A DNA stretch of 43,578 bases from a virus: the IMG/VR virus record IMGVR_UViG_3300037485_000689, positions 1 through 43,578 of that record; one strand, written 5' to 3'. Made by a program: the position numbers and the translations under genes. The notes beneath the pieces were generated by a model. It did no database searches. It was given only the letters and a program-made list of their open reading frames with translations, and had not been told where the DNA came from. Below, in pieces: positions 5,555 to 37,208 of this stretch (position 1 is the stretch's first letter; each line of letters opens with the position of its first letter).

Positions 5555-6355
5555 ATGATAGCACAAGCAATAGGAGCAGGTTTACAATTAGCAAATATGG
5601 GAATGTCTTGGCAGGCTCAAAAAGCTGCTGAAGCAAAAGCAGCCCAATTAGACGCTCAACCACTAGAGAAATACACCCCAGACTCAAGATTAAATAGTTT
5701 CTATCAGCAAGCAGTTGCTGGTGTTGCTAACCCACAAGGATACACAGGAGCAGAAACAGCAGGATATAAATCTCGCTTAGCTGAATTAATAAATTCTAGA
5801 AACTATAACGCTAATAAAATAGGTGGTGGTCAGTTATCAGGAGCTATTGGAGCTATGAGTAACGCAGAATCTATAAACGCTTTAAATCAATTTAGCGGTA
5901 ACGATGCTGCTCTAAGAAGAAGCGCATTTAACGCTGCCATGGGTAGACAACAAAGTGCTATGAATGAGTACAATAGACTTGGAATTATGAACACTCAAAC
6001 AGCTTTACAAAGAAGATTAATGAAGGAGCAGGCTCTGGGTCAGGCTATTCAAAGCAATAAGGCTATGATAGGAAATAGCTTGAATAATATAGGCGGAGAT
6101 TTAATGGGTTACGGTATGACTAAGGATTTGATGGCACAAAGATTAGCTGGAACTAATCCTGCAACCACCACAGGAAGTCCTAGTGCTGATTTGGCAAGAA
6201 CTTATTTTGGAACAGGCGGTAAAATGAAATTAGGAAACAGGTTTGGAAATTATGCAAGACCAATTGCAGGAAATTCTATGTTCCCTCAACCTGAAGAATA
6301 TTACAAAACACCATACACTGCAACAGAAGGTATGGATTATAACAACTTTGAATAA
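5555..6355 (+). CDS. candidate internal virion / DNA pilot-like protein, 266 aa
   Basis: The protein begins with a hydrophobic glycine-rich helix (AIGAGLQLANMGMSW) followed by Ala/Gln-rich helices with little sequence complexity. It ends in a Gly/Tyr/Pro-rich tail. This is the usual look of small phage ejection or pilot proteins such as the gp14-like or VP2-like proteins, in which the N-terminal helix contacts membrane. It is the first gene of the virion module and overlaps the next by one base (TAATG). Two still larger candidate ejection proteins follow. No specific family can be named; the role is from composition and position. Confidence 0.6.
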   Translation: MIAQAIGAGLQLANMGMSWQAQKAAEAKAAQLDAQPLEKYTPDSRLNSFYQQAVAGVANPQGYTGAETAGYKSRLAELINSRNYNANKIGGGQLSGAIGAMSNAESINALNQFSGNDAALRRSAFNAAMGRQQSAMNEYNRLGIMNTQTALQRRLMKEQALGQAIQSNKAMIGNSLNNIGGDLMGYGMTKDLMAQRLAGTNPATTTGSPSADLARTYFGTGGKMKLGNRFGNYARPIAGNSMFPQPEEYYKTPYTATEGMDYNNFE

Positions 6356-7815
6356 TGGAAGATACTATAGGACTCGCAGGGAGCTTAGGCTTAATAAATA
6401 AGGGCGGTGCTGCCTTTGGCGGTAACGTATTAACAAGAGCGGCTAACAAAGAGCTTGAGATAAGTGTAGCCGAAAAGAAGGCTGAGGCATTAAGATTGGC
6501 TAAACAAGCTCAAGAAGAGAAATTGTTAATTAACAGGATAAGACCTAGTGGTAAATTCGATGAGTTGGCTAGAAAAAACATGGAAAAAACTTATGCTGAT
6601 ATGGTTATAAACAAGAAATATAACGACCCAGAAGAAGTATATAAATTTGGACTTTATAAAGACCAGCAAGAGCAAGCAACTAGAGAAAGAGCTACTGCTA
6701 AGGAAACTATGACCAAAAATGACTATGTTACTGTTCTACCAAAAGACAGACAGGCTTTAATAGACCATGACATTCCATATTTAACAGAAAGAGCGAAAGA
6801 CCCTGCAAGTGGAATTACAGCAGACCCTAATTTGTCAGACGTATTCCATTTAGCTCCTGAGAAAATGATTAAAAGGCTAGATGCCAATAAGATGATGACT
6901 GATATAGGTTCTAATATCCCTAAAGATGCTCCTTCTTATGATTACAGCCAGAAGTCAAAAACAATGAGTATTAACGGTAAGAACGTGATAGTATTCCCAG
7001 TTAAGAACGAAATATTAAATAGAGTTGCTGAGAATGTTTTTGGCTACGGAGTTGAAGGTGCTACTCAAGGTAACCCTGAAATAGCAGAAAACTTTAAAAC
7101 TGCTAACAAACAAAAAATAGATGCGGAAATAGCAGCCAATCCTAAGCTAACTCCTTATGAGGCTACTAAGAAAGTATTTATTGATGTTCTAAGAGAAAAG
7201 ACAATGGGTGGCGATGAGAATAAGCCTAGTGGCAAAGGAAGTGTTTTTAATTGGAACTCTGGAAGCGGAGGCAGTATAAGTAATGGAGAAATATCACTAG
7301 ACCCAATTACAGGAGACACTGGCGGATACAATGTTAGATATGTAAATGGTAAGAATCCTGAATTGAAGTCATATAACTTTAGCGGAACTGACAAAAAAGG
7401 AAACCCAATTACAATTTCTTTCTCTAATGTTGATAATGTATATAAGAACAGTGATGGAAGTGCTTATGTTGTGGGTGCGGTAGGGAAAGATGAATTAAGC
7501 GGCAAGGTGGTAAGCGGAACGATATATAACGTACAACCTTCTGAGTTGTTTAGTAATATAAAGCTTTCACAAGATGGATTTGACAAGCTAAAGGCAAAAC
7601 CAGCAGGCTCTTTTAATCCAGTAGCCGAATATAAGGCAAGAGAAGCTGCTTTTGAAGAGTATAAAGCAAAAAATCCAAAAGGTATGCTTGATATTGAAAC
7701 TCTATTTAATGACCCTAAAATTACAAAATATATAGCACTTAAACCTGCTAAAAAAGTAGAAGCTGCAAAGCCTAAAACAGCTTCGATAGGCGGAGCACCA
7801 AGACCAAAAAAATAA
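6355..7815 (+). CDS. candidate internal virion protein, 486 aa
   Basis: Unknown family. Residues 1-30 are Gly/Ala-rich (IGLAGSLGLINKGGAAFGGN), followed by a long charged helix (about 32-70) and mixed helical sequence to about 290. A low-complexity Gly/Ser segment near 297-308 leads to a beta-rich region (about 310-420) and a Lys/Pro-rich end. It starts inside the stop codon of the previous gene and ends 12 bases before the 2444-aa gene, so the three are co-expressed. By position it may be a core or ejection protein, but no enzyme motif is visible. Confidence 0.6.
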   Translation: MEDTIGLAGSLGLINKGGAAFGGNVLTRAANKELEISVAEKKAEALRLAKQAQEEKLLINRIRPSGKFDELARKNMEKTYADMVINKKYNDPEEVYKFGLYKDQQEQATRERATAKETMTKNDYVTVLPKDRQALIDHDIPYLTERAKDPASGITADPNLSDVFHLAPEKMIKRLDANKMMTDIGSNIPKDAPSYDYSQKSKTMSINGKNVIVFPVKNEILNRVAENVFGYGVEGATQGNPEIAENFKTANKQKIDAEIAANPKLTPYEATKKVFIDVLREKTMGGDENKPSGKGSVFNWNSGSGGSISNGEISLDPITGDTGGYNVRYVNGKNPELKSYNFSGTDKKGNPITISFSNVDNVYKNSDGSAYVVGAVGKDELSGKVVSGTIYNVQPSELFSNIKLSQDGFDKLKAKPAGSFNPVAEYKAREAAFEEYKAKNPKGMLDIETLFNDPKITKYIALKPAKKVEAAKPKTASIGGAPRPKK

Positions 7816-7827
7816 AAATATTAGGAT

Positions 7828-10800
7828 ATGCCACAAGAACCAGATTACACAAGCGAAATATATAAATACCTAGGAACTTTAGATAAGACTTATCAAAAAG
7901 AAATTAGTCTAGATAAATTCAAGGAATCTATGAAGGATAAGAACTATGCTTCTGATATTCATTCTTGGATTGGAAGCAAGGACGAAACCTTTACTAAAGA
8001 CGTGCCTTTTGATGATTTTTATGGCTCTATAAATCCAAAAACTCCTGCCGTTCCATCGTTCTCAACAGATATGTCAAATACATTACCTGTAATGAAAGAT
8101 TCTCCTTTACAAGCAAATGTAGATAAGGTTGTTAAAGAACCTGTTGTGCCTGCTATGCCAAAAGCATTTAGCATTCCTAAAGAAAAAGCAATAGTAGATA
8201 AAGACCCAATAGGTAGAACTAATTTATATAAAAGCACTGTTGACAATATAACAAAAAGAATTTCTAACAACCTTTTAATTGCAGATGAATTAGGGAAAAA
8301 AGGTGATGGTCAAGGTATGCAGAACGTAATGTCGCAAATAAACCAAGACCAAAAGAAAATAGAGTCATTAAATAAAGGCATAGATGCTCAACGTGTTATA
8401 GCAGAAGACATGGGCTACAACACTAAAGGAGAAAGTTTGTTAAGAGGTGTTAAGAGTACGCTTGCCTACTTCCTTACAGCTCCAGAAGGTTACGATGAAT
8501 CAATATCAGCCATAGAAAGAAGTTTTTATGGTATGGTTGGCATTGACACTGGTAAGATGACAAAAGATATTATTGATTGGAAAGCTAAGACAGAAAAAGA
8601 ATTAGGAAAGCCTATTGGAGTAGAAGAAATGAGGTTAAGCGATGATTTAGCTGTTATTGGAAGAAAAATATTAGACCAAACAAGTAAAGAAAAAAGCATA
8701 GCTAATTTAGGTTCTAAGTATAGCGGAGACGTAATTAAACTTGTAAAAAGTGGAGATGTTGGAGAGATTGTAAGTCAAGGAGTAAATTCATTTTTAGAAA
8801 ACGCACCTACGTCTTTAGCTTTTTTAAATCCATATTCAGCAGCAGGAGTAGTTGGTGGAATGATGAACCAAGAAATTACACAAGCTAAAAGCGAAGGTAA
8901 GGAAATTGGCGCACAAGTAGTAGCTGCTGGAGCAATAAAAGCAGCATTGGAATTTGCTACTGAGAATATGATGGGTGGAGGTAAAGTTGTAAAAGATTTA
9001 GTGGCATCAATAGGAAAGGAAGCAGCAGAAAAAGTTGTTAAGGAATCTATTGAAAAAATGGTCAAAGAAGGTTTCCTTAAAAAATATGGTAAAGCTATTA
9101 AAGAAGAAATATTAGGAGAAGTTACTAATCAAATAGGTAGTAATGCTGTTGATATTTATATGAACGGCAAAAAAGATGTTAAACTCAGTGACGGTATTAG
9201 TGATGCTGCTTTTGCCGCAATATTTTCAAGTGGGATACAAACAGCACCTGCATTATTAGCACAGAAGTATGTAGATAAAAAAGCGATAGCAGCTTCTCAA
9301 GAAAAGAAAGCACAAGCAGCAAAATTAATGGAAAGTGCTGTATCTCAACCAACTATAGCAGCACAAGATGCCATAGAAGAAAAAGCACAAAAACTAGAAG
9401 CAGAGGCTAATAAAGAAATTGACAGCCATGTTGAAACGGCTAAAAAAGCAACAGACGAAGATTTATCAAAAATAGATAATTTAGATACTTCAATTGACGA
9501 AATAAGTGCAAGTATCAACGAAAATTCTGACCCAGAAGTAATTGCAATACTTGAGGAAAAGAAGCAAGAACTTGAAAAAGAGCGTACAAGCACAATAAAA
9601 GAAATAGAAAAAAGACCAACATCAAACACTAAGTTCTATCAAGGTGTTGATTTTAAGGCACAAACAGGATTGCCTAATGGTGACTACACTGAAGAACAAG
9701 TAAAGGCGGCAAGAGAAAACAAATTAAAAGAAGCAGGCGTACCGCCATTAGAAATAGAAAAAATAAATGCAGAACAAGAAATTATACCAGCAACTGAAAC
9801 CTCTGCTGCACCAATTAGCGGTGTTAGTAGTGAAGTACAGGAATCTGGTGATGTAAAAGAAGCTGAAAAAGATATAGAAAGACGTAGGCAAGAAGACCTA
9901 AACGAGCCAAAAAAATATGCTAATTATGAGGCAATAGGAGATATTGAAAAAGTCAACGCCTACAAATATACTGATAAAGGTGAATTAATGGTCGGTTATG
10001 AAACCGAAACAAAAGCAGGCTCTTATTCGGGAGTAAAAGGTAGTATATCAGAACAGCAAGTTAAAAACATAGAAGAAAAAGATGGGAAAGAAGCTGCAAT
10101 AAATTATATAAAAGAGCAACTGTTAATAGCAGAAAAAAGAAGAACTGATTATATAAATGCTAAATATAATAGAGAGTTAGCAGAATTAGAAACTAAAACC
10201 AATAAACAAAATGATAAAGAAAACGGAACAGGGGTACAAAGTAACATCGGAGAAGGGAAAGAACCTGTCAAAACCCAACCTATCGAAACCACAGGCGGAG
10301 AAAAGATTGAAGCAGGTGGAAATGTTCAAGCATCTGAAGAAGAAGTAGTTAAACCAAGAGAAGAGAAAGAAGTAACTAAAAAGACAACAGAGGTTACCCC
10401 TAAAGAAGGTGATAGCTCAATTACTAAGTCTGCAAGAGGTATGATTCAAAACATGGTCTTTAAGGATGGTGAGTGGCAAATTAAATTTGGTAAAGTCTTT
10501 ACTACAGTTTCTAATGCTGTTCAGAAAGAAGCTCAAGATGCGTTTAATGAAAAGAATGCACCTGTCGCTGTAGAAGGTAAGGTCAAAGTAAAACCTTACA
10601 AGCAAGGAGATGGTGGAACAAAGGGAGTTTTTGAAGGAGAAGATGGTAAACTTTATAAATCTATCGAGCCGCAAGAGGCAGTTCAAGATAAAGAAGGAAA
10701 CTTTAATCGTCAAACTATTAAAGACACACTAACAGATGAACATGAAATACTGTCAGACCTACAAGATAACCCCCATGTGCCTAAAGTAGGTAAAATTGTA

Positions 10801-13800
10801 GATACCACAGAAGGTAAAGCTTTTGAAATAGAAAAATTAGACGAAGTTGATACATTTACAAAAGAAGAGTACAGAGAAATTCAAAAAATACTAAATGATT
10901 TAAACGACAAAGGTTATCATGTAGGAGATAGAGTTACTGTTATGAAACGCCCAAAAACAGGCGAACTTGTTATTATTGATTTTTCTGCTGGGTACAAAGG
11001 AAGTAGAATGTCAAGAGATGCCGATGAATATATGGGTGATGTAGCAAAAAAATTAAGTAAATCTGATGCTATAAATATTAAGTTAGAAGACTTCTCAGAA
11101 ACAAATAAAGAACAAGCTAATGCTTTTTTTGGCAAGGAATCAACTAACGAATATTATTTAACACAAAGACCCCCAAGCATAGGAACGCATCCAACAGATG
11201 GATTATTATCAGTTAACGAAGCAGAATATAGAAACAGAAAAAATGTTTATATACTTAAATATGATAGAAAACTTACACCAAACGAAATAGCTAACTTTGA
11301 ACTAACTCCTAAAGTAACAAATAAAGAATTTTTAGGTCAAAAAATATTAGGTGTATATGGTAAAACTCCATTTTATGTAACTGAAATAGATTACAAAAAT
11401 GGAATTGTAAAAATGGCTGCGGAGGTAGTTGGAAAAGAAGTAAAAAAAGAAATTTCTTTTAGGGAGTTTAGTAAAAATATAGACGAAGGTAAATATAAAG
11501 TAGAAGCACCTGTAGTTAAGGAGCAAGCCGCACCTCCAGTAAAAGCTGAAGAAAAACCAGCTAAGGAACAAAAAGAACCTGTTAAGGAACAAGCACCTGT
11601 AATAGAAGCTCCTAAACTAGAGATACCTGTTGTAGAAGAAACTGTAACTGAGCCTGCGGCTGCGGTAGAGGAAGAAGAAGAACAATACGAACCTATAACA
11701 GTATCAGACACTAGTCACGATACATTCACCAAGGACAACGCTGTAGACTACGAAGAAGGAGAAAAATACGGAGATAATGGACGTTCTTATTCCTACCTAG
11801 CATCAGTAACTGTAGAGTTAATAGATGATGTTAGTGGTGATAGCATAGGAACAATATCTAAGTTGAAAGACGAGGATGGCGAAATTACTTGGAATGCTGA
11901 GAACAATGACGGAGACCTAGTAGTTGAAGAAGCTAGTAGTAAAGGCGAGGCTCAACAAGCTCTTGTAGATAATTATAACAAACAGAAACTAAAGGAGTTT
12001 AATAAAGAAAAGGCTAAGGCTGCTAAGGAGAAAATTAAAGAGGCAGAGAAGGCTAAACAGAAAGCTGAGAAAGAAGCTGCGAAGGCGGCAAAAGCTGCTG
12101 AAAAAGCTGATAAAAAATCTAAGCCAGAACAAATAGGAAATGGATTACTAGACCTATTAGGAATAGAACCAGAGGAAACAACAGGTAAAAAAACTCCTAA
12201 GAAAAAACCTGTAAATGTAAGTAATAAATCAGAATTAGCTGAATTAGAAAATAACGCACAGGGAAACAAAAAAACTATAATAGAGGCAGCAAAGAAAGCG
12301 ATAGCCACTCTTAAATCTATATTCCCTGAAATGGATATCTATTTGCACGAAGACTCAGAATCTTATAACGAAACTATGAGAGACGAAGTGGGTGGTGTTG
12401 AGAATTCAAGGGGTAACTTTGCTTTTGAAAGAGATTCAAATAATAATCCAACAGGAAGGGGCAGGATAGATATAAATCTAAATAATGCTAAAGACACAAC
12501 AGTAGCGCACGAAATAACTCACGCTATTCTTTTAAAAGCTTTTGGAGATAATCCAGCATTATTTAAAATATTTAGAGATAGAATCTCCAGAATATTAAAT
12601 TCTGACCTAAACGATAAAGTTACGGCATTTGAAGACTTATATTCAGGTAACGAAGTAGCCTCAGAGGAATACTTGACAGAACTTTCTGCATTGCTTTCAC
12701 AAAGCGGAGAAAAAGTTACATATAAGCCAAGTACCTTAAAAAGGGTAGCTGCGGCAATAAATGACATAGTTTCAAAAATAACAAAAGGAAAGTTCCAGCC
12801 TTTTAAATCAGAAGTAGACTTTAAAAACTTTGTTGATTTTTTAAATCAAATATCAGGAGCAATAAATGAAGGCTCTGAAATAAACTTAGAATCAAAAGAA
12901 TCGGGCGATGCAGTAATAAGTGGCGTTGTGCCGTTAAGTAGATTAAAAAACAAATCGGACTTAGGATTTAAAAAATTTGATGTTAAGTGGGATGTTGGTG
13001 CTAAATCTAATATTAAGTTAAGTGTTCCAGCAGAAAGAAAAAGCCTATACAATGTAGTAGTAAAATCAGGAGGTGCAGTAGTAATTATAAATTCAGACGC
13101 TACAGGCATAGGTCTTACAAAAGATAAGGACTTATTGCAAGGTGGTATTGGATATACTTTTATCAGTGAAAACGTAAATGAAAATATGGCATTTGCTGCA
13201 AGTAACGATGGTAAAATACCTTCTTTTTATGCAGCGGTTGTTGATGCGGCAAATAAAAGAGATGCTGAGTACCCCGAAATGAAAGGCAAGCCTGTAGCCG
13301 TATTTGTAATGGTACAAACGCCTGCTGCTATGTTTGGAAACGCTTATTCAGCAGATTATTTTGGAAGAGTATTAAAGAAAATAACTAAAGATAAGTTAAT
13401 TAGTACTGAAGAAGCTAAAAAAGAACTTATTGAATTTATAGAAGATTATAAAGCTAACAATAAAACAGGTGAAAAATATAGAAATTCGTTAGACCTTCTT
13501 TCGGACTTAATAATGGAAACTGATTTTTCAAAAGAAGAATCATTAGGCAAATTAGTTGATTTGTTAATAAGCAATAGAACTTCTAAAGAAGATAAGTCTG
13601 CTAAATTTGGTTTTGATATTAGACGTTCATTCTTTGAAAAGTTTTTTGTTGGAGTAGGAACTGTAAAAAAAGAAGCTCCTGCTAGAAACCTAAGACTAAA
13701 GCTTAAAGAAAAAGGATATAATCACGAAGGATTCTTCAAGGAGTTTGGAGACAAAAATGTAATGTCTTTATTAGAAGGAGAGACAGCAGGTAAAAAACTA

Positions 13801-15162
13801 GCTGATGGTAATTTTGCTTTGACTGGTTTTTTTGTTGACCCTTATCAAGATAAAAGTACTTATATTGAAAATAGTAAAAAAGGAACTTACAAACACAAAC
13901 AATTTAATTCTAAATTTTACGGTGTAGACCCATTTGTATTAGATGGAAAATATTATGTAGATAAAATGTTTCCAGAAGCTAGATTTATAAGCAAAAAAAC
14001 AGGAGAAGAAGTTCCTGTACAAGTTGCGGCAGCTGGCTCTTTGTATCCCAGAACTCAAAGGTCGTCTCAATCAATAGTTGAAAGAGCAAAAAAAACACAA
14101 GAAGAATCTGAAGCAGCTGACAATAAAGGAACAATGGTGAGTAAGTCTCAAAAAGAGGCAGTAGATAAGGCGGTAGAATATAAAAAAGAAAGCGGTACAA
14201 CACAAGTAGCAACTACAACTGGTAGTTATGAAAAAGCTGCTAATATATTAAAAGGAATGGGCATTAGTTCTGATGTGTTAGACTACGGTGCAGGATTAGG
14301 ATACGGCTCTGATGCCATGTCAAATGTATTAGGATTTAATGTCGATAGTTTTGAACCTAACTCTGAAAGATGGAAAGGTAAAAATGATGTAACATTTAAA
14401 AGTTCTAATGATATAAATAAGAAGTATAATTCTATAGTTTCGTTAAGTGTATTAAATGTAGTTGAAAAATATATAAGAGACTCAATTGTTAAGGACATTT
14501 ATAATAATTTAAAGGATGGCGGAACTGCTATTATTAGCACTAGAAAATGGAGTGGAGATGTAAACCAAGCTAAAAATGCAGTTGACGGTGGGGAAAAAAA
14601 TAGTTTATATATTACAAGGACTCAAGAAGGCAAAAAAGTAAAGGTTTTTCAAAAAGGATTTGACGGAAACGAGTTGGTAGATTATATAAAAGATTTACTT
14701 GGCGACAAGGTAAGTGTAGAGAAAAATAACACGTTTGGTGCTGCTGGCGTTATTATCAAAAAGAATGGTAATATAAAATCTAAATCTCAAAGCTCACAAG
14801 ATTCTAAAATAAGAGACTACATAGAAAGCCAAAGAGAGGCTGGAGAATCCGATGCCGATATTAGAGCAGGTGTAGAAATGGTGGCTGATAAATTAGGTTT
14901 AACTAAAGAAGACATAAATAACTTAATGTCTGAAAATGAACCTAATAAGGCAACCACAGAGCAAGCAGAATTTATTCCAGATGCTAAGGATATAGCAGCA
15001 TTTAGTAAAATACTGGGAACTAAAAGCGGTGCTATTAGAAATAAGAACATAGCTGAGGCTATTAAAGTAAATCCTAAAATACAAGAGATTATGGACAACT
15101 TTGAAGAGCTAAAGAAACAATTAATGACTAGTGTTGAGTTAACGGAAGACTGTTCTTGGTAA
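7828..15162 (+). CDS. giant polyvalent virion protein with kinase-like, metallopeptidase and methyltransferase regions, 2444 aa
   Basis: Residues about 12-70 hold two copies of a 30-residue repeat ([WY][LI]G[ST]xDxT[FY]xK). Residues about 315-480 are Ala/Gly-rich and membrane-prone, as in ejected inner-core proteins. About 925-1075 is kinase-like, with a candidate K944, HVGD (1031-1034) and IIDFS with D1051. The usual catalytic-loop Asn is not evident. A YYLTQRPPSIG motif follows. About 1395-1435 is a Lys/Ala coiled coil. A zincin domain has HEITH at 1561-1565 and a possible third ligand E1618. About 1690-2050 is an unnamed domain. A class I methyltransferase has VLDYGAGLG at about 2150-2158 and LSVLNVVEK near 2207. 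The architecture fits phage polyvalent proteins thought to be packaged and injected to counter host defences. An AGGA lies just upstream of the ATG. Confidence 0.8.
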   Translation: MPQEPDYTSEIYKYLGTLDKTYQKEISLDKFKESMKDKNYASDIHSWIGSKDETFTKDVPFDDFYGSINPKTPAVPSFSTDMSNTLPVMKDSPLQANVDKVVKEPVVPAMPKAFSIPKEKAIVDKDPIGRTNLYKSTVDNITKRISNNLLIADELGKKGDGQGMQNVMSQINQDQKKIESLNKGIDAQRVIAEDMGYNTKGESLLRGVKSTLAYFLTAPEGYDESISAIERSFYGMVGIDTGKMTKDIIDWKAKTEKELGKPIGVEEMRLSDDLAVIGRKILDQTSKEKSIANLGSKYSGDVIKLVKSGDVGEIVSQGVNSFLENAPTSLAFLNPYSAAGVVGGMMNQEITQAKSEGKEIGAQVVAAGAIKAALEFATENMMGGGKVVKDLVASIGKEAAEKVVKESIEKMVKEGFLKKYGKAIKEEILGEVTNQIGSNAVDIYMNGKKDVKLSDGISDAAFAAIFSSGIQTAPALLAQKYVDKKAIAASQEKKAQAAKLMESAVSQPTIAAQDAIEEKAQKLEAEANKEIDSHVETAKKATDEDLSKIDNLDTSIDEISASINENSDPEVIAILEEKKQELEKERTSTIKEIEKRPTSNTKFYQGVDFKAQTGLPNGDYTEEQVKAARENKLKEAGVPPLEIEKINAEQEIIPATETSAAPISGVSSEVQESGDVKEAEKDIERRRQEDLNEPKKYANYEAIGDIEKVNAYKYTDKGELMVGYETETKAGSYSGVKGSISEQQVKNIEEKDGKEAAINYIKEQLLIAEKRRTDYINAKYNRELAELETKTNKQNDKENGTGVQSNIGEGKEPVKTQPIETTGGEKIEAGGNVQASEEEVVKPREEKEVTKKTTEVTPKEGDSSITKSARGMIQNMVFKDGEWQIKFGKVFTTVSNAVQKEAQDAFNEKNAPVAVEGKVKVKPYKQGDGGTKGVFEGEDGKLYKSIEPQEAVQDKEGNFNRQTIKDTLTDEHEILSDLQDNPHVPKVGKIVDTTEGKAFEIEKLDEVDTFTKEEYREIQKILNDLNDKGYHVGDRVTVMKRPKTGELVIIDFSAGYKGSRMSRDADEYMGDVAKKLSKSDAINIKLEDFSETNKEQANAFFGKESTNEYYLTQRPPSIGTHPTDGLLSVNEAEYRNRKNVYILKYDRKLTPNEIANFELTPKVTNKEFLGQKILGVYGKTPFYVTEIDYKNGIVKMAAEVVGKEVKKEISFREFSKNIDEGKYKVEAPVVKEQAAPPVKAEEKPAKEQKEPVKEQAPVIEAPKLEIPVVEETVTEPAAAVEEEEEQYEPITVSDTSHDTFTKDNAVDYEEGEKYGDNGRSYSYLASVTVELIDDVSGDSIGTISKLKDEDGEITWNAENNDGDLVVEEASSKGEAQQALVDNYNKQKLKEFNKEKAKAAKEKIKEAEKAKQKAEKEAAKAAKAAEKADKKSKPEQIGNGLLDLLGIEPEETTGKKTPKKKPVNVSNKSELAELENNAQGNKKTIIEAAKKAIATLKSIFPEMDIYLHEDSESYNETMRDEVGGVENSRGNFAFERDSNNNPTGRGRIDINLNNAKDTTVAHEITHAILLKAFGDNPALFKIFRDRISRILNSDLNDKVTAFEDLYSGNEVASEEYLTELSALLSQSGEKVTYKPSTLKRVAAAINDIVSKITKGKFQPFKSEVDFKNFVDFLNQISGAINEGSEINLESKESGDAVISGVVPLSRLKNKSDLGFKKFDVKWDVGAKSNIKLSVPAERKSLYNVVVKSGGAVVIINSDATGIGLTKDKDLLQGGIGYTFISENVNENMAFAASNDGKIPSFYAAVVDAANKRDAEYPEMKGKPVAVFVMVQTPAAMFGNAYSADYFGRVLKKITKDKLISTEEAKKELIEFIEDYKANNKTGEKYRNSLDLLSDLIMETDFSKEESLGKLVDLLISNRTSKEDKSAKFGFDIRRSFFEKFFVGVGTVKKEAPARNLRLKLKEKGYNHEGFFKEFGDKNVMSLLEGETAGKKLADGNFALTGFFVDPYQDKSTYIENSKKGTYKHKQFNSKFYGVDPFVLDGKYYVDKMFPEARFISKKTGEEVPVQVAAAGSLYPRTQRSSQSIVERAKKTQEESEAADNKGTMVSKSQKEAVDKAVEYKKESGTTQVATTTGSYEKAANILKGMGISSDVLDYGAGLGYGSDAMSNVLGFNVDSFEPNSERWKGKNDVTFKSSNDINKKYNSIVSLSVLNVVEKYIRDSIVKDIYNNLKDGGTAIISTRKWSGDVNQAKNAVDGGEKNSLYITRTQEGKKVKVFQKGFDGNELVDYIKDLLGDKVSVEKNNTFGAAGVIIKKNGNIKSKSQSSQDSKIRDYIESQREAGESDADIRAGVEMVADKLGLTKEDINNLMSENEPNKATTEQAEFIPDAKDIAAFSKILGTKSGAIRNKNIAEAIKVNPKIQEIMDNFEELKKQLMTSVELTEDCSW

Positions 15163-15186
15163 TCAGATAACAAAGACTTAAATTTG
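15156..15186 (+). promoter_or_regulatory. promoter for the ferritin-like gene
   Basis: -33 box TTG (15156-15158, inside the end of the giant gene), 20-base spacer, -7 box TAAATTTG (15179-15186) followed by C. The ATG at 15195 is eight bases later, predicting a leader of a few bases at most. Confidence 0.75.
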
Positions 15187-15194
15187 CATAAATT

Positions 15195-15689
15195 ATGAAA
15201 GAATATTATATGATATCAGACGAGGCAATGGAGATTATCGCTCCATTAGCTGAAATAGAGCTAGAACAATCGACCTTCTACAATCAATTGGCTGTAACTG
15301 CTAATAGATTAGGATTTCTAAGGGCACAAAAATATTTTAACCAAGAAGCTATAGAAGAGAAAGAACACTTCATGGGATGGGTTGATTATATCTCTGGAAG
15401 GGGCAACGCTTATACTATTCCTGCTATTGGAACAACTAAGTGCAAGAGCAAGAGCTTGTACGAGCTAATAGAAATGGCATTAGCTAAAGAAATTGAGGTT
15501 AGTAAGTTATATGCAGAGCAAGGTATGAAGTTATTTAATGTAGACCAACTTGCATACCAGAAGTTAATTGGTTACTTACAAATACAAAACGAAGCTATAA
15601 TATTCTATACCGATTTGTGTGCAAAGTTCGAAGGACTAGATAAAGCAGGAGAGTTAACAGCAGAACACTCGGAATTCGAAATAGGATAA
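15195..15689 (+). CDS. ferritin-like di-iron protein, 164 aa
   Basis: The protein has the ferritin helix layout. Helix A holds EIELEQSTFYNQL with candidate ligand E24. Helix B holds YFNQEAIEEKEHFM with the ExxH pair E55/H58. A connecting segment YISGRGNAYTIPAI closely resembles the ferritin B-C linker. Helix C (ELIEMALAKEIEVSKLY) offers a further Glu, and helix D (YLQIQNEAIIFYTDL) ends the bundle. Length is near that of bacterial ferritin. It would store or oxidise iron and might protect DNA or serve inside the virion. It has its own promoter and lies between two giant virion genes, so a virion or infection role is possible. A Dps-like identity is less likely because of the linker. Confidence 0.75.
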   Translation: MKEYYMISDEAMEIIAPLAEIELEQSTFYNQLAVTANRLGFLRAQKYFNQEAIEEKEHFMGWVDYISGRGNAYTIPAIGTTKCKSKSLYELIEMALAKEIEVSKLYAEQGMKLFNVDQLAYQKLIGYLQIQNEAIIFYTDLCAKFEGLDKAGELTAEHSEFEIG

Positions 15690-15702
15690 AAAAAAATTAA
15701 GT

Positions 15703-15771
15703 CAAGGTGTCGTATAAAGGCAATTACGCTAGTTTATAATTAGTATTGTGGTTCAATTCCATGCCCTATGA
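15703..15771 (+). tRNA. small tRNA-like sequence, candidate anticodon UAU
   Basis: The T arm is canonical (TGTGG, loop TTCAATT, CCATG). The D arm is GTA/TAC with a GG-containing loop. The anticodon stem GCTAG/TTAGT (two G-U pairs) closes loop TTTATAA with U33 and anticodon TAT. Faults are a variable loop of only two bases, no base 26, and an acceptor stem CAAGGTG/CCCTATG with two mismatches. Four more outer pairs (15699-15702 with 15771-15774) extend the acceptor helix, unlike a normal tRNA. UAU would read AUA (Ile). It could be a decayed phage tRNA or a tRNA-like RNA element. It follows the ferritin-like gene by 13 bases. Confidence 0.4.
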
Positions 15772-15780
15772 CTTTTATCA

Positions 15781-15811
15781 TTTGCTATTTCAAAGATTAG
15801 TATTAAATTTG
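15781..15811 (+). promoter_or_regulatory. consensus promoter for second small RNA
   Basis: -33 box TTTG (15781-15784), exact 19-base spacer, -7 box TAAATTTG (15804-15811). No coding start follows before the terminator about 85 bases later. Confidence 0.8.
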
Positions 15812-15816
15812 TGCGT

Positions 15817-15929
15817 TGATGTTAGGAATCAATGATTCAATTTGTATATTTAATTTTTTATAATAATATAACCGCCTTTAGATAGGCAACAAAAAGAGCT
15901 CGGATATCCTAACTATCTGGGCTTTTTTG
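15817..15929 (+). ncRNA. predicted small RNA of about 110 nt
   Basis: The start is inferred from the -7 box at 15804-15811 and the end from the terminator T-run. The 5' part can form TTGAT/ATCAA or the alternative GAATC/GATTC hairpin, the middle is AU-rich, and a GCCT/AGGC mini-hairpin precedes the terminator. Its terminator core (AGCTC...GGGCTTTTTT) resembles that of the unit at 5423-5498, but the bodies do not align clearly. No credible frame lies inside. Confidence 0.55.
15897..15928 (+). terminator. rho-independent terminator
   Basis: A 10-bp stem AGCTCGGATA/TATCTGGGCT (two G-U pairs) with loop TCCTAAC is preceded by AAAAA and followed by a run of six T. It would end the small RNA and also read-through from the ferritin-like gene. 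Confidence 0.85.
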
Positions 15930-16100
15930 CTTTTATCAACATAATGTTCCATTAGTCTGTGCAGAGGTTTTACACCATTCGCTAATTACGATTACCAAAT
16001 TTTTACTTTTAAATTTAAAGCAAGTTGCCAACACTTAAATATTCTTCTTTTAGAATACTCCTACTTTAGAGCCAAAGCCAATTCCTATAAACTCATTATA

Positions 16101-16195
16101 CGATAGTACGGTAAGAGATGTTGCTCTCATTCAGGGGGTAGGGGGCAACACCTTTTACTTACCTACCTCAAACCTTAAATCTATAACCGATAGTA
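16101..16195 (+). promoter_or_regulatory. G-rich structured leader element with alternative pairing
   Basis: GGTAAG (16110-16115) pairs with CTTACC (16158-16163), and inside it TGTTGC (16119-16124) pairs with GCAACA (16145-16150). The apical loop carries GGGGGTAGGGGG, which is striking in such AT-rich DNA. GGTAGG (16137-16142) can instead pair with CCTACC (16162-16167), which overlaps the outer stem, giving a two-state or pseudoknotted fold. The 8-base sequence CGATAGTA occurs at both ends (16101-16108 and 16188-16195). Because the gene promoter lies downstream at 16233, this may act in a longer read-through transcript or as DNA. No known riboswitch class is recognised. Confidence 0.45.
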
Positions 16196-16232
16196 ATTAA
16201 GTGTAAAACTTTAAATTACAACATAAATTCAT

Positions 16233-16240
16233 TAAATTTG
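16233..16240 (+). promoter_or_regulatory. -7 box for the 1571-aa gene
   Basis: TAAATTTG followed by CC. A weak TTTA at 16210-16213 stands at the -33 distance. The ATG at 16270 follows a 29-base A-rich leader with AATAATAA repeats. Confidence 0.7.
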
Positions 16241-16269
16241 CCTAATAATAAAAAATAATAAAAAAAACC

Positions 16270-19200
16270 ATGGCTTGCTTCGTAAATTACAAAGGAAAAA
16301 GATATAGTGAACCCGAATTCTTCGCATTGCTAGCGGCTGGCGAGTACGATAAGCTAGTTGCTGAAGGAAAGTTTGAACCTAAGAAATTAACTAGCACCTC
16401 AACTGCGTCTACTCAAGAAGAAATAAAGGAAAGAAATAGAATAAACGATGAACTAGGCGGTGGCGTAAGTCAATGGTTAGATAGGTTTAACTCAGACGTA
16501 GTGATTCCAGAAAGAATGAAGGAGTTGATAGCTGAGAACAATAATAACAAAACAACCTTAACCAATCAAACTTCTCTCGAACAAGCTCAGGAACTTATAA
16601 ACCAATATGAAAATGAGCGTAAGGCTGGAAACAGAAAAGCAAAAGGTAGAGACGCTGTCACTAGAATAATAGAAGAAATAAAGAACGGTGAGCTTACAAA
16701 TGCTTTGTCTGTTGCTGCGGCAATGATAATCTTCAAGAATACTGCTGTGGAAATATCAAGAGCTCTAAAAACTGGAAATACAGCAAAGGCAGAATACTTC
16801 TTTAAGATACAAACAGATGTTATAATAGCCTTAAAAGAAAAAGGAACTGAAACAGGTCGTGAGTTGCAAGCATTCTCATTACTAGATAAGTATATACTAT
16901 CAGACCCAGAACTAGCTGATTTCTACTACAGAAAGAAAGTAGAGGCTAGTAACACAGAGGCAATGAATAATGAAACTAACAAATCATCTGCAAATGAAGT
17001 TGTTGACACTGTAAACAAAGCAAAGGAAGCTGCCAAAAAGAAAACAGCAGCAGCAGTTGTCAAAGACGTAAACGCAGCTCTAGAAAAAGAGATGAGAAAA
17101 GGTCTTGTTAATCCTACAGAAGCTAAGAAAAATCAGGTAAAATCATTTTTTAATAAACTTAGAGTAGACGAAACTAAAACACTGAACAATAAAACATTCT
17201 CAGCCATAATACCAATAAACGTAATTATAGACCCTAAGAAATACAATAAATTTATAGATGGAGTAGAGGCACTTGTTTTAGGCGGGATGAATTTAGGTAT
17301 AGCCATAACAAAAATGAAGGCAAAGCTATTAGGAACTGAAGGTTATGACGAAAAGCAAATCAATGCAATGCAGAAGTTATTTGTTTCTAGCATAAAAGAA
17401 ACTCAAAATCCTAAAGCAAAAACAAAGCTACAGCTAGAAAGAGAGGCTGCCAATGCTGAGTTTAAAGCAGTAAAAGAACAATACAACGCTAAGCAAAAAG
17501 AAATAAAAGATGCTAAAGAAAAAGCTAGACTAGCTGACGAAGCTGTACAAAAAATTCTAGACGATGTTGAAAGGGAGAACTTTAAAAGAATAGTATCAGA
17601 ACAAGAAGAGCTGAAGAAGCAAAGAGAAAAATTAGCAGCTGATAAAATAAAGGAAAGACAAGACCTTGAGGCGGCAATTATTAAACTTGAAGAAAAAAAC
17701 CAAAAAGCATTAGCTGCTGCCGAACAGAAAATAGCTGACGCTGTTGAAAAAGAAAACTTTAAGAGAATTGTGGCGGAACAAAATGAAGCTAACAAAAAGA
17801 AAAAGAAATTAGAAAGTGATATAGACAAACTAACTAAAGAAATATTATCTACTGCAAAAAAGAGTAATACCAATGCAGTTGAGGCTATTATAGATATGTT
17901 CTACTCTGGTGACAATCAACTGCAATCAAACTTAGAAGAGATGGTAGTAGAGGCTTTGGATGTAACACCGCAAGAAGCAGTCAAAATTGCTGAGAAGATA
18001 AAGAACTCAATGGAAAATGAGCTTAGGTCTAAATTGTTAAAAGATTTAGCTAGCACAATTAAGTACGCAGAAGAGAAAGAAAATCCACCTGTAGCTAAAA
18101 CCAATAAGCCATATATAGATAAATTTATCAGTGCTATAAGTACAGGAAATATAGCAGGCAAGACAACTGTCGTAGATAAGTTAATTCAGCTTAGCATGAT
18201 GGGCGTACTATCAGCCGATGACGTAATGAACTTAGTTAAGAAGAAGTACGGTATGAGTGAATTCACTATTGAAATGGCACAATTTGTTAAAGAGCAGGCT
18301 AAGAAAATAAGTGAAGCTACATTACAAGACAGAAAGAATAAAGAGATGGCTAAACTCCTTAACGAGATGACTAGACTAACTCCTCTTTATTATAATGACG
18401 CAATGAATAGTTTATGGTACGCTTCTGTATTAAGTGGTGTAGGAACTCAGGACGCAAACATTTCGTACAATATAGCTCAAGTATTTAATAACTACGGAAA
18501 CGTAGCTTTTGTAAATCTTGCAAATAAAATAGCAAGTATTAAGAATGTTGGTCTTAAAAATGCCTCAAGAAACTTTTTGTATGATAGTATGTACAGCATA
18601 TTAAGAGGCTTGTATCAAGATTCTTTAAGCAGTACGTCTAAATTAGGTGTTGGAAGCTCATCTTTAGTAAATCTTATTTTTGGAGTGAGAGAGGGAGTAT
18701 CTAGTTATGCAGAATCTGAAAAAATTGTAAGCAGTCAGACTCAAGGAGAAGTAGATTACAGCAGGTTGAAAAAAGGAATGAAGTTTTTGAATAATACAAA
18801 ATATATAGGAAGAATGCTTTCTTCAGTGGATTTGGCTATTCAAGACTTACAAAAAAATCCTTGGCTAGCGATAATGATAAGAGAGGTTTACGAGAAGCAA
18901 GGATTAGATACAGCCGCTATAGATGCTATAATAAAAGCGCAATTAGTAAGTACGGAACTTGAACTAGAAGTAGCTAACCAAAAAGCTGTAGAAGATATTC
19001 TCAAATACGATATTACTATAAAAGAAAAAGATGGTAAGTTTATTGTGATGTATAATAACAGCAAAAGGGGCATATTTGACACAATGCAAGAAGCCGAAGA
19101 TGCTAGAGAGGGAATTGCTAAAAACGAAGGCATTGCAATTAAAAGATGGGCGTACAAGTATTTACAAGAAAAAATTAATAGAGATGTGGTAGAGTCGGCA

Positions 19201-20985
19201 ACGCATTTATCCCAAGAAAGTATAATGTCTTCTGCTCCTACTGGAGTTGCAAGTAGATGGATTTATGATAACATGATAAACTTAAAAAGCACCATGACTA
19301 AGAAGAGTATGGAGCTAGAACAAGAATCAAGAGCCTCTAATTCTTACGCAACAAAATACGCAAAAAGCTTCTTTTCTAGGTCTATATACGCAGCAGAAAG
19401 AACAGTAGCGTTTGTTAAGATGTCAGTTAACTTAATGAATAACTTCTTTGTATTAGATACTCCTTTAGGTATATGGAGAGCATATAGTATTCAAAGAATA
19501 ACAAAAAACCCTATAGGAAATACGCAAAACAAAATAGCAGATTTCTATAAAACACAAACTCAAATTGACGCATTAAAATCAAGAGCTATTATGAGCACCT
19601 TGGCTTGGGCTGTTCCATTATTGTTTACAACACTACTTAAAGGTAAAGATGATGATGACGATGAAAAAAAGAGAATTAAAGCAGAGCAATCTAAAGAAAT
19701 AGCTGATGCTTATGCAGAAGAAAATCAAGACAAGATAGATGAAAGCAGTCCTTATCTTATAACTCCTGAAGACGGAGAGGTATTTGGTGCTTTAGACTTT
19801 ATGACTCCAGAAATGAAAAAATCATTAGAAAATGCTGGTTTAGCTAAAGAACACTCTGTATATAAGGGCGTATATCCAAATGGTAGATTTGTATCTATTG
19901 TTTCAGACCCTAGTAAATTTAATTTTGCAGCTGTTCTTGTAAATACTATAAAAATGTATCAAAAATACATAATAAACGATACTAACAACAAGACGCCTTT
20001 AGCAGAAAGACAAAAAAGATTAAGTGAATTAATAATGCAGTCAGCAGTATATTCTATGATGTCTTTTGGAAGTTTTAGTATAAACAAAAGAGCTAAATCA
20101 TTAGTTGAGACTGCGAAACAATCAGAAGGTAAGGTAATAGACGTTGCTACGGCTGCTATTGAAACAGCTATCCCAGAATTTCAGTTAGCAAACCCAAATA
20201 TACTAAAGCAATCAATAAGATATTTTGATGGTGCTGCCAGAGAAATGATTCGCCCTTCAGAAGACTTTACTACTTATGCAAAAACAAAAATACCAATATT
20301 AGGTTCTTTTGTAAGCGTGTACGGAGCAACCGAAAGGTTTGGTATGTTTGGAGAAAAAATGTATTCAGTACCAGCAATGTCTCAGGGTGCGGTTTCCCAA
20401 TATTATTTTAACTTTATGTATGGAGATAAGAATAAGGAATACAAAGAAATGTATCGTTTCTTAGCCAGCAAAGGGTATAATAAAGTGAAATCAATGCCTA
20501 GTAGCTTTTATGTGGGAGACCTTTATATAACTCCACAAGAAAGAGATAAGCTAGGATTACAGGCAGCAAAAGAGGTATTCGAAAAGATAAATAAAGAAAA
20601 ATCTTCTTTAAGTACTTTGCCAGACAAAGAAGTTGGTAGATATGTAGACAAACTGTTTAATCTTAAATTCTTAAATGTATTTTTAAAAGAAAGAGGTGTA
20701 TACGATGAAGCTAAGGTAAAATTAGAGAACGAAAAGTTTGATATAGATTTCCAAGGCAGATTAATTAAACAAGAACAAGAAGCTGCAAAAGAAGAATACC
20801 TTGAAGTTACTCCAAAAGAAAAAGAATTAATAAAAAAAGCTGGAACTAGTAAGGCTCAAAGATATTCTGTAGTACATCCTTTACTTGAAACCTCTAAAGA
20901 CCCATTAACCGATATTTCAAGGTACTTTAGATTAGGAATAATATCGAAAGAACAAGCGATTGAATTTAACACTGAGTTTGAATAA
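16270..20985 (+). CDS. giant internal virion/ejection protein candidate, 1571 aa
   Basis: No enzyme motif is recognised. Residues 1-40 form a small domain (ACFVNYKGKRYSEPEF). About 370-530 is a long charged coiled coil containing an imperfect duplication around EKENFKRIV / ERENFKRIV. About 700-1100 has blocks typical of large inner-core polyvalent proteins, such as NSLWYASVLSGVG and a later FVKMSVNLMNNFFVLDTPLG segment. One strong membrane helix (about 1103-1122, IMSTLAWAVPLLFTTLL) is followed by a KGKDDDDDEKK run. The protein may form a core or translocation channel with the 2444-aa protein. It is flanked by its own promoters. No lytic transglycosylase signature was found. Confidence 0.65.
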   Translation: MACFVNYKGKRYSEPEFFALLAAGEYDKLVAEGKFEPKKLTSTSTASTQEEIKERNRINDELGGGVSQWLDRFNSDVVIPERMKELIAENNNNKTTLTNQTSLEQAQELINQYENERKAGNRKAKGRDAVTRIIEEIKNGELTNALSVAAAMIIFKNTAVEISRALKTGNTAKAEYFFKIQTDVIIALKEKGTETGRELQAFSLLDKYILSDPELADFYYRKKVEASNTEAMNNETNKSSANEVVDTVNKAKEAAKKKTAAAVVKDVNAALEKEMRKGLVNPTEAKKNQVKSFFNKLRVDETKTLNNKTFSAIIPINVIIDPKKYNKFIDGVEALVLGGMNLGIAITKMKAKLLGTEGYDEKQINAMQKLFVSSIKETQNPKAKTKLQLEREAANAEFKAVKEQYNAKQKEIKDAKEKARLADEAVQKILDDVERENFKRIVSEQEELKKQREKLAADKIKERQDLEAAIIKLEEKNQKALAAAEQKIADAVEKENFKRIVAEQNEANKKKKKLESDIDKLTKEILSTAKKSNTNAVEAIIDMFYSGDNQLQSNLEEMVVEALDVTPQEAVKIAEKIKNSMENELRSKLLKDLASTIKYAEEKENPPVAKTNKPYIDKFISAISTGNIAGKTTVVDKLIQLSMMGVLSADDVMNLVKKKYGMSEFTIEMAQFVKEQAKKISEATLQDRKNKEMAKLLNEMTRLTPLYYNDAMNSLWYASVLSGVGTQDANISYNIAQVFNNYGNVAFVNLANKIASIKNVGLKNASRNFLYDSMYSILRGLYQDSLSSTSKLGVGSSSLVNLIFGVREGVSSYAESEKIVSSQTQGEVDYSRLKKGMKFLNNTKYIGRMLSSVDLAIQDLQKNPWLAIMIREVYEKQGLDTAAIDAIIKAQLVSTELELEVANQKAVEDILKYDITIKEKDGKFIVMYNNSKRGIFDTMQEAEDAREGIAKNEGIAIKRWAYKYLQEKINRDVVESATHLSQESIMSSAPTGVASRWIYDNMINLKSTMTKKSMELEQESRASNSYATKYAKSFFSRSIYAAERTVAFVKMSVNLMNNFFVLDTPLGIWRAYSIQRITKNPIGNTQNKIADFYKTQTQIDALKSRAIMSTLAWAVPLLFTTLLKGKDDDDDEKKRIKAEQSKEIADAYAEENQDKIDESSPYLITPEDGEVFGALDFMTPEMKKSLENAGLAKEHSVYKGVYPNGRFVSIVSDPSKFNFAAVLVNTIKMYQKYIINDTNNKTPLAERQKRLSELIMQSAVYSMMSFGSFSINKRAKSLVETAKQSEGKVIDVATAAIETAIPEFQLANPNILKQSIRYFDGAAREMIRPSEDFTTYAKTKIPILGSFVSVYGATERFGMFGEKMYSVPAMSQGAVSQYYFNFMYGDKNKEYKEMYRFLASKGYNKVKSMPSSFYVGDLYITPQERDKLGLQAAKEVFEKINKEKSSLSTLPDKEVGRYVDKLFNLKFLNVFLKERGVYDEAKVKLENEKFDIDFQGRLIKQEQEAAKEEYLEVTPKEKELIKKAGTSKAQRYSVVHPLLETSKDPLTDISRYFRLGIISKEQAIEFNTEFE

Positions 20986-21005
20986 AATAAAATAACGTAT
21001 ATTTG
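20977..21005 (+). promoter_or_regulatory. promoter for the 303-aa structural gene
   Basis: -33 box TTTG (20977-20980, inside the end of the upstream gene), 17-base spacer, -7 box TATATTTG (20998-21005) followed by C. The ATG at 21013 is seven bases later, so the mRNA should be leaderless or nearly so. Confidence 0.75.
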
Positions 21006-21012
21006 CATTAAT

Positions 21013-21924
21013 ATGAGCCTTTACCCAACAAATAACCTAGAAATTGTAGACCCTTTCGGGGAGATAATTAACTTTACAGATACCACAGGTGGTTACGCCA
21101 CAAACAACACTGACGGATATGGAAGTCCTAACCTAACCTACGCACAGGTTGGCGGTATAAATTTACTAATAGGAAACTATGTAAATATAACTCCCTCAGC
21201 ACTAGGCGTTGGAGCTGCTTTAGTTCCATACACTCAATACATTAAGACTAGTGGAGCTTCACAAACTTACGACAGCAAGATAGTAACAGTAGGTAATTAC
21301 TTTGTACCTCACACAACAGGACTAGTAGTAGCGGCTGGCGACACATTTGAGACAACAGGATATTACAATCCGCTAATAACTCCATCAAGATGGTTGCCAA
21401 CAGCTTTAGGAACTCCCTTATACTTAAGTACGCAAGACTTAGGTTATACCACACTTGGCGTTATTCCTGATAGCATATTAACTTTACAGTACGAAGTGTA
21501 CGGAATTGTAAATACTACAGCTTTCACAACAACTTTAGGTACTAAGTACTTAGTTACTGGAACTGGAACTGTTATATACTTAGGAAGCACCTATAAGCAA
21601 GGAGAAGTATTTACAGCTTCAGGAGCATCAACAGTAAGTGTAGGTAGTGGAACTTTTGGAGTTGCACCTTATAATAGTGGAGCAGTAAGTAACTTTCAAA
21701 CTATCTATAACTTAGAAACTAGTTTGGTAGCCCTGCAAACATCAAATATTTTAAGTCCAAAAAGTCAAGGAAGGGAGTACAACTATCAGGTAGCCACCAT
21801 CTTTACAAATATCTACACTATGCAGAATGCTGCCAATATTGGTTTAGTAAGTTTAGGTCAGGCATATAATAATATTGTAAGTTTACAGGAAGAAGTTGAT
21901 AATTTAGCTAATAATATTTATTAA
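21013..21924 (+). CDS. tail/appendage structural protein candidate, 303 aa
   Basis: Unknown family. The protein is Thr/Gly/Tyr-rich and beta-rich over residues 1-220, ending in a helical C-terminal segment (about 225-303). The segment LGTKYLVTGTGTVIYLG...GEVFTASG matches in layout a segment of the 287-aa protein at 23539-24402 (GTYIVKGTPNT...GQVFTKSG), so the two share a beta-sandwich-like module and may be paralogues. It begins the appendage cluster and overlaps the following 84-aa gene by one base (TAATG). Confidence 0.65.
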   Translation: MSLYPTNNLEIVDPFGEIINFTDTTGGYATNNTDGYGSPNLTYAQVGGINLLIGNYVNITPSALGVGAALVPYTQYIKTSGASQTYDSKIVTVGNYFVPHTTGLVVAAGDTFETTGYYNPLITPSRWLPTALGTPLYLSTQDLGYTTLGVIPDSILTLQYEVYGIVNTTAFTTTLGTKYLVTGTGTVIYLGSTYKQGEVFTASGASTVSVGSGTFGVAPYNSGAVSNFQTIYNLETSLVALQTSNILSPKSQGREYNYQVATIFTNIYTMQNAANIGLVSLGQAYNNIVSLQEEVDNLANNIY

Positions 21925-22178
21925 TGGACTACAATCAAATAATATATCAATTAAGACTAGAGCAAGTTCGTTGTACGCAATTAGGATTACCATTTGATGT
22001 TAGTGATAACACTATTATTTATTTAAGTAATCTTATTCACAGTTATAATTTTGTTGGAATAACTGATAGTCAAAGAATAATAATAAAGAATGAGATTAAC
22101 GGTATAGTACAAGACGTTAACTATTATACGTCTTTTACTCAAGGGTTATTTAACGGCTACTATAATTCACAAGTTTAA
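21924..22178 (+). CDS. small hypothetical protein, 84 aa
   Basis: Unknown family. The sequence is Asn/Tyr/Ile-rich and starts DYNQIIYQLRLEQVRC. There is no membrane segment or motif. It starts within the stop codon of the 303-aa gene, so translation is probably coupled, and it ends just before the -33 box of the fibre promoter. It may be a chaperone or minor component of the 303-aa protein, by position only. Confidence 0.65.
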   Translation: MDYNQIIYQLRLEQVRCTQLGLPFDVSDNTIIYLSNLIHSYNFVGITDSQRIIIKNEINGIVQDVNYYTSFTQGLFNGYYNSQV

Positions 22179-22180
22179 AC

Positions 22181-22212
22181 TTTGTAAATTACAGAGGAAA
22201 AGACTAATTTTG
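22181..22212 (+). promoter_or_regulatory. promoter for the tail fibre gene
   Basis: -33 box TTTG (22181-22184), 20-base spacer, -7 box TAATTTTG (22205-22212) followed by C. A 25-base leader containing AATAATAATAATAATAA precedes the ATG at 22238. Confidence 0.75.
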
Positions 22213-22237
22213 CAATAGAAAATAATAATAATAATAA

Positions 22238-23536: not shown

Positions 23537-23538
23537 TC

Positions 23539-37195: not shown

Positions 37196-37203
37196 TATTT
37201 TTG
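37196..37203 (+). promoter_or_regulatory. -7 box for the giant tail gene
   Basis: TATTTTTG lies five bases before the ATG at 37209. No clear -33 box is seen. The frame is open from a GTG at 37203, but that GTG uses the last base of the box, so the ATG is the start. Confidence 0.6.
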
Positions 37204-37208
37204 TGCGT

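Follow-up and report, generated by a model that had tools for sequence, protein, structure and literature searches.

Introduction

Iyer et al. (2017) described polyvalent proteins of phages and conjugative elements, in which disparate domains are joined in one polypeptide around a zincin hub and which are predicted to be injected (PMC5512222). In the same work, zincin-mediated self-processing of these proteins was proposed, recombinational variability was raised for one bacterial locus, that of Verrucomicrobium, and a reduced kinase group was reported from Bacteroidetes (PMC5512222). Here, we describe a giant protein from an uncultured Bacteroidota-type phage that has hallmarks of this class; with DarA_C, zincin and methyltransferase it contains at least two biochemically unrelated domains. 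Beyond the polyvalent proteins described before (PMC5512222), we directly observe presence or absence of cassettes, a junction linker that is conserved and, at the level of silent sites, exchange between diverged phages; a domain linked to the peptidase has no counterpart in the family libraries that we searched.

Other known systems share single traits with it. DarA, Hdf and DdrB of phage P1 have the DarA_C domain in common with it, and DdrB also has a zincin, but in our protein DarA_C is the only DarA domain detected, and it is part of a single giant protein of a podovirus. The crAss001 proteins gp45-gp50 are large cargo proteins of a short-tailed Bacteroidota phage, likewise encoded with muzzle and ring proteins (PMC10172136); the crAss001 cargo includes RNA polymerase subunits, whereas none are seen in the protein described here. 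The closest syntenic counterpart is the 3.7-kaa 'structural protein' of elemoviruses (YP_010108907, QMP85520), which has the same type of zincin (27% identity) followed by a large domain. There, however, a single fused gene is present, and the domain after the zincin, referred to below as the L5-type domain, resembles ours by eye only. Exchange of domains within phage proteins is a general rule (Smug et al. 2023, PMC10684548), which our locus follows, but the main text of that study does not use the terms ejection, polyvalent or internal virion.

Gene and gene neighbourhood

The window, i.e. the whole stretch of DNA analysed, comprises 43,578 nt of virus record IMGVR_UViG_3300037485_000689 and encodes terminase, portal, capsid and tail genes. 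Its terminase is closest to those of elemo, Cellulophaga and Maribacter phages and of an unclassified spring-water phage (~29-37% identity), and the Crassvirus muzzle protein has a match in the ORF at 37203-41807 (E 3e-17, Pfam scan). The polyvalent protein gene is located exactly where an earlier note on this DNA had placed it, at 7828..15162 on the plus strand, as are all features given below; it starts with ATG, is open for all codons and encodes 2444 aa. It is preceded by a conserved small ejection-protein-like gene (5555..6355, 266 aa) and by a 486-aa gene in a conserved slot (6355..7815), the 3' part of which is also exchanged in the relative L002. This order of a small and a medium gene of ejection-protein type and then a giant gene is the same in L002, L004, L005, L020, L019 and the elemo phages. 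In the latter, the giant gene is labelled 'structural protein' and lies next to virion genes, a label that may rest on annotation alone.

Domain content, gene order and synteny with the elemo 'structural protein' give good support to a polyvalent protein encoded in a virion or ejection operon, in line with the earlier note, and the gene lies in the ejection-protein slot of a crAss-/elemo-like podovirus. For the phage-encoded injection or virion context of polyvalent proteins, synteny and the muzzle protein are indirect evidence. Packaging of the protein in the virion is likely because the gene slot is of the virion type and crAss001 cargo proteins of this kind were detected in virions by mass spectrometry (PMC10172136). 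PADLOC gave no match for the polyvalent protein.

Directly downstream follows a gene for a ferritin-like protein (15195..15689; PF00210, E 2.8e-9) that is 90-93% identical in L002, L004 and L005 and 48% identical in L020; it is thus fixed inside the ejection-gene cluster. A second large protein of 1571 aa (16270..20985) is also exchanged: the relatives have versions of 1232-1242 aa instead, which clearly share only the first ~38-58 residues, besides one weak stretch.

Framework

Protein and DNA comparison with relatives, the close ones all being metagenomic contigs, revealed a framework that is shared by four contigs. It comprises aa 71-130 (8038..8217), present in L002, L004 and L005; aa 598-699 (9619..9924), starting with NTKFYQGVDFKAQTGLPNGDYTEEQV and matched over aa 598-691 in the protein comparison; aa 774-914 (10147..10569), which stops at a cassette junction; aa 1289-1405 (11692..12042), a small beta domain with a helical linker according to alignment and model; and the C-terminus, aa 2333-2444 (14824..15159), which ends with VELTEDCSW. 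In front of it lies an N-terminal leader with two similar halves (aa 1-70; 7828..8037) that is exchanged: it differs from L002, for which the alignment begins at aa 71, and is shared with L004, which can be aligned from the first residue. In L002, the leader is exchanged jointly with the 3' part of the preceding gene (486 aa), over 6870-8038. By eye, the leaders vary between phages and each apparently consists of a duplicated short motif (window, L002, L005, L019, L020), which is perhaps a packaging or docking signal.

Residues 130-510 (8215..9357) are 96% identical in L002 and replaced in L004 and L005. This region had been regarded as membrane-prone, but it is only mildly hydrophobic. On the Kyte-Doolittle scale, its most hydrophobic stretches of 19 residues score 1.27-1.42, under the usual threshold of 1.6, and a membrane segment is therefore not convincing.

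Kinase-like and DarA_C cassette

The first cassette (10572..11508) is absent from L003 and L004 and present in L020. Its N-terminal part (aa 925-1060; 10600..11007) had been called kinase-like, and indeed a glycine-rich loop (GDGGTKG), a lysine (YK), a glutamate, H-x-x-D and IIDFS follow each other in kinase order within aa 927-1053. However, searches of Pfam, PHROGs and PDB sequences gave no kinase match, and apart from the peptidase and the framework domain the AlphaFold2 model of aa 925-2081 is poor. The kinase assignment was therefore not adopted and the region stays a motif resemblance.

The cassette further contains a DarA_C domain (PF18789, aa 1106-1161; 11143..11310) that had been overlooked. 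It is above the Pfam cutoff in our protein (E 2.8e-9) and in L020, and it points to the P1 defence-against-restriction proteins. The DarA N-terminal domain is not among the Pfam matches of the protein up to E 1, but may have diverged. A putative SH3/Tudor-like small barrel follows (aa 1165-1229; 11320..11514), modelled with low confidence, and then a junction linker of the KEQAP type (11515..11691).

Peptidase and its linked domain

The HExxH peptidase of the earlier note held up. The motif, HEITH, is at aa 1561-1565, and both the motif and a downstream acidic EExLxEL are conserved across distant homologues. The block (12211..12903) was modelled by AlphaFold2 with a pLDDT of mostly 75-89, lower at the end, and the model is zincin-like. 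It matches the zincins anthrax lethal factor, PPEP-3 and Certhrax over 146-164 residues with Z ~5.2-6.3, i.e. below our caution line for structure matches of Z 8, and these matches would indicate kinship of the fold only, the names being those of a fold.

The peptidase is followed by a domain that travels with it (aa 1694-2081; 12907..14070). The central region around aa 1690-2050 had been described as without assignment, and comparison with Pfam, NCBIfam, PHROGs and sequences of the PDB bore this out, matches of the linked domain in Pfam, PHROGs and the PDB sequences staying at chance level at best. No match was obtained among phages up to E 10, plasmids gave one match at chance level, and two scans of genome contigs, the first of them including the peptidase, yielded none. 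The domain nevertheless recurs with 81% identity in a phage polyprotein that is otherwise unrelated, encoded by the 49-kb contig L019, and there too the peptidase lies in front of it. L019 shares only aa 1462-2105, that is peptidase and linked domain, and the match ends before the methyltransferase. This block has 72-75% amino acid identity and 42% identity at four-fold sites; the neighbouring genes of L019 have 17-32% four-fold identity, based on small counts. With 75% identity in amino acids versus 42% at four-fold sites, the exchange must be old and purifying selection strong. As far as sequence comparison tells, aa 1694-2081 is a constrained, conserved domain, and it may act as an effector, regulate the peptidase next to it or be part of the virion. 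The polyvalent ORF of L019 (L019:2568-14651, 4027 aa) also has a weak ART-PolyVal match (E 4e-4) and, by eye, a ParB-like stretch.

A large domain after the zincin is also found in 19 loci of the elemo or L005 type. This L5-type domain has the motifs PDxxFxG, EGKGGVYYP, FWAST and HESYP. The 16 best PDB matches of its model (pLDDT 84.7) are all YTH domains, of the PUA-like YTH/EVE fold, with Z 5.5-7.3 over ~120-147 residues and thus also below the caution line; the next PDB match is the restriction enzyme VcaM4I. Sequence support for the YTH-like match was sought and none was found, and Foldseek against the PDB gave nothing below E 0.2. Against a viral structure library, 17 matches below E 1e-3 were obtained, all of them phage proteins and mostly unnamed. 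By eye, a collinear series of motifs is common to the linked domain of our protein and the L5-type domain. A profile comparison of the two gave 2.3 bits, with shuffles reaching up to 9.5, and an hhalign probability of 0.6%. Since this score is no better than that of shuffled sequence, homology is not claimed.

Methyltransferase

The methyltransferase region was likewise borne out. Pfam and the alignment of homologues place a predicted class I SAM methyltransferase at aa 2105-2312 (14140..14763), and Methyltransf_23 matches aa 2148-2240 with 31.6 bits (1.7e-7) in a scan of the fragment, above the cutoff of 27 bits, but with 26.6 bits in the whole protein. Motif I (DYGAGLG) is conserved in six phage homologues, and the family alignment has in common a T...T..TY.KA stretch, DYGAGLG, NLNVLNV, I-x-TRG and QKGF-x-x-x-EL. 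The (D/N/S)PP(Y/F/W) motif was searched for in aa 2105-2312, which have no PP dipeptide; NLNVLNV is found there in the aligned family. A role in protecting the phage DNA was considered and rejected: because the DNA-adenine-methylase motif is absent, self-methylation against restriction is not indicated.

Homologues of ~31-37% identity are embedded in large proteins of unrelated Pelagibacter, Roseobacter and Mycobacterium phages, such as HTVC104P gp54 (1638 aa), the 'tape measure' Myrna gp97 and CRP-738 gp40. CRP-738 gp40 is located between portal and coat genes, and the C-terminus of HTVC104P gp54 reads like a lysozyme domain. Homologues are also encoded by stand-alone genes, in MJing1 and L021. 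The repeated fusion to virion-type proteins supports the idea that the methyltransferase would be delivered with the particle. In HTVC104P gp54 (L045:401-5317), a motif of the DVFSQF type is seen by eye in the N-terminal part and again between the methyltransferase and the lysozyme-like end.

Exchange of cassettes

At the DNA level, the window is ~82-97% identical to L002, L004 and L005 over most of the flanks, and whole blocks inside the polyvalent gene are unmatched. L002 matches with 89-97% identity across most of the DNA before 6870 and, once more, from 8038 to 9862. Between 9862 and 14930 only short framework matches are left (10350-10570, 11683-12140), before matches resume with 85-93% across 14930-15888 and 20981-24376. 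The unmatched blocks include 10570-11683, 12140-14930 and the next large gene, 15888-20981. Between the framework segments the relatives carry other domains. By eye, the cassettes of L002 contain a stretch like RelA/SpoT and an EVQSDW module, neither of which matched a Pfam family.

The kinase-like/DarA_C cassette is missing in L004, where 14515-14887 and 14892-15466 correspond to 10201-10570 and 11496-12074 of the window, and positions 10570 and 11496 thus adjoin at 14887 and 14892. The empty site in L003 and L004 is one continuous repeat-like linker, AEVKEQAPVVKEQAAPPVKAEEKPVKEQKEPVKEQ. This architecture was found in these two assemblies, which are from different samples; the other architectures were seen once each. 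In L003 and L004, three ORFs take the place of one polyvalent gene (1366, 389 or 408, and 1338 aa; L004:9001-18345), and the corresponding region of the elemo phages is one 3.7-kaa protein.

In the 73-kb contig L020, related linker pieces flank the cassette on both sides, and 38 nt of the junction linker are identical in L003, L004 and L020. The L020 cassette is ~94-95% identical to that of the window in amino acids, 94% in nucleotides and 84% at 101 four-fold sites. The three L020 genes next to the giant gene have only 41%, 29% and 48% amino acid identity and 44-56% identity at four-fold sites. Such silent-site identity is unattainable by selection at the protein level and therefore the cassette moved recently relative to the divergence of the lineages. 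After the cassette, L020 carries a peptidase of the L002/L005 type (79-85%) and then C-terminal modules of the L002 type (43-53%), and cassettes therefore occur in differing combinations. Strong direct repeats that could serve as recombination sites were found neither at the cassette edges nor within the gene. Judged from these comparisons, phages shuffle the effector part of the protein among themselves, which is what Iyer et al. (2017) had suspected to happen at polyvalent loci.

Discussion

Probably, the protein serves as cargo (ejection) protein of a crAss-/elemo-like podovirus and is modular, with a conserved framework that holds exchangeable cassettes. This framework consists of a short segment in the N-terminal part, two mid segments of low complexity, the small beta-domain and the C-terminus, and the cassettes here are kinase-like plus DarA_C plus SH3-like, zincin plus linked domain, and methyltransferase. 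Cassettes may be swapped by recombination in the framework and in the repeat-like KEQAP linkers, with the reading frame kept. The protein would be carried in the head or tail and would leave the particle with the DNA or before it. Its own zincin may cleave it, and its parts, if catalytically active, would act on host targets early in infection. In line with the earlier note, the polyvalent protein may enter the host cell and block host defences, and effects on defence appear plausible. It is tempting to go one step further and to regard the injected protein as a polymorphic-effector system, in which framework and linkers dock cassettes and diverged phages trade them; in this way the arsenal could change with the virion kept constant. 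We consider this extension, which would also cover the virion-borne methyltransferase family and the unnamed peptidase-linked domain, an even bet.

An unlikely alternative is that the protein has mainly a structural or ejection-channel function, of the kind of T7 gp16 or the crAss cargo, and that its enzyme-like domains are decayed or serve assembly, for example self-processing or head-size control, rather than attack on the host. In P1, head morphogenesis involves DarA and Hdf (PMC12810830), the gene slot and the long linkers suit a cargo protein (PMC10172136), and the kinase-like loop is without a clear catalytic Asn. However, the peptidase and methyltransferase motifs are retained, the block of peptidase and linked domain is under purifying selection when compared with L019 (75% versus 42%), and a purely structural role would not explain why phages whose virion genes are similar exchange enzyme-like cassettes. 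That the mosaic reflects differential selection or assembly chimeras and not an exchange of cassettes is very improbable. The contigs are metagenomic, the relatives few and the flanking genes of L020 strongly diverged, but constraint on the protein cannot yield 84% silent-site identity in the cassette next to 44-56% in its neighbours; furthermore, L003 and L004 from different samples agree, and the cassette borders are at the same linker in independent contigs. Somewhat less doubtful than a purely structural role, though still not favoured, is the possibility that the peptidase is the functional core of the module, with the linked domain as a prodomain or substrate gate and the other cassettes freed by cuts in the linkers. 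This would be in line with the joint travel of both domains, with the large domain after the peptidase in the 19 L5-type loci and with the self-processing proposed by Iyer et al. (PMC5512222), but in L004 a domain that by eye is of the same class sits before the peptidase and not after it.

Returning to the modular cargo protein, Iyer et al. (2017) had already described the protein class as such; what looks new are the cassette system and two of the domains. What we add are presence or absence of cassettes and their transfer between phages, the conserved junction linker, the peptidase-linked domain and a family of methyltransferases associated with virion proteins. Silent sites and the empty site are direct comparative evidence for cassette exchange in phage proteins that are probably injected, an exchange that for polyvalent loci had so far been a suggestion. 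Should the cassettes be counter-defence effectors, which the cultured elemo phages would permit to test, the junction linkers could be used to list such effectors from metagenomes with no need for their folds.
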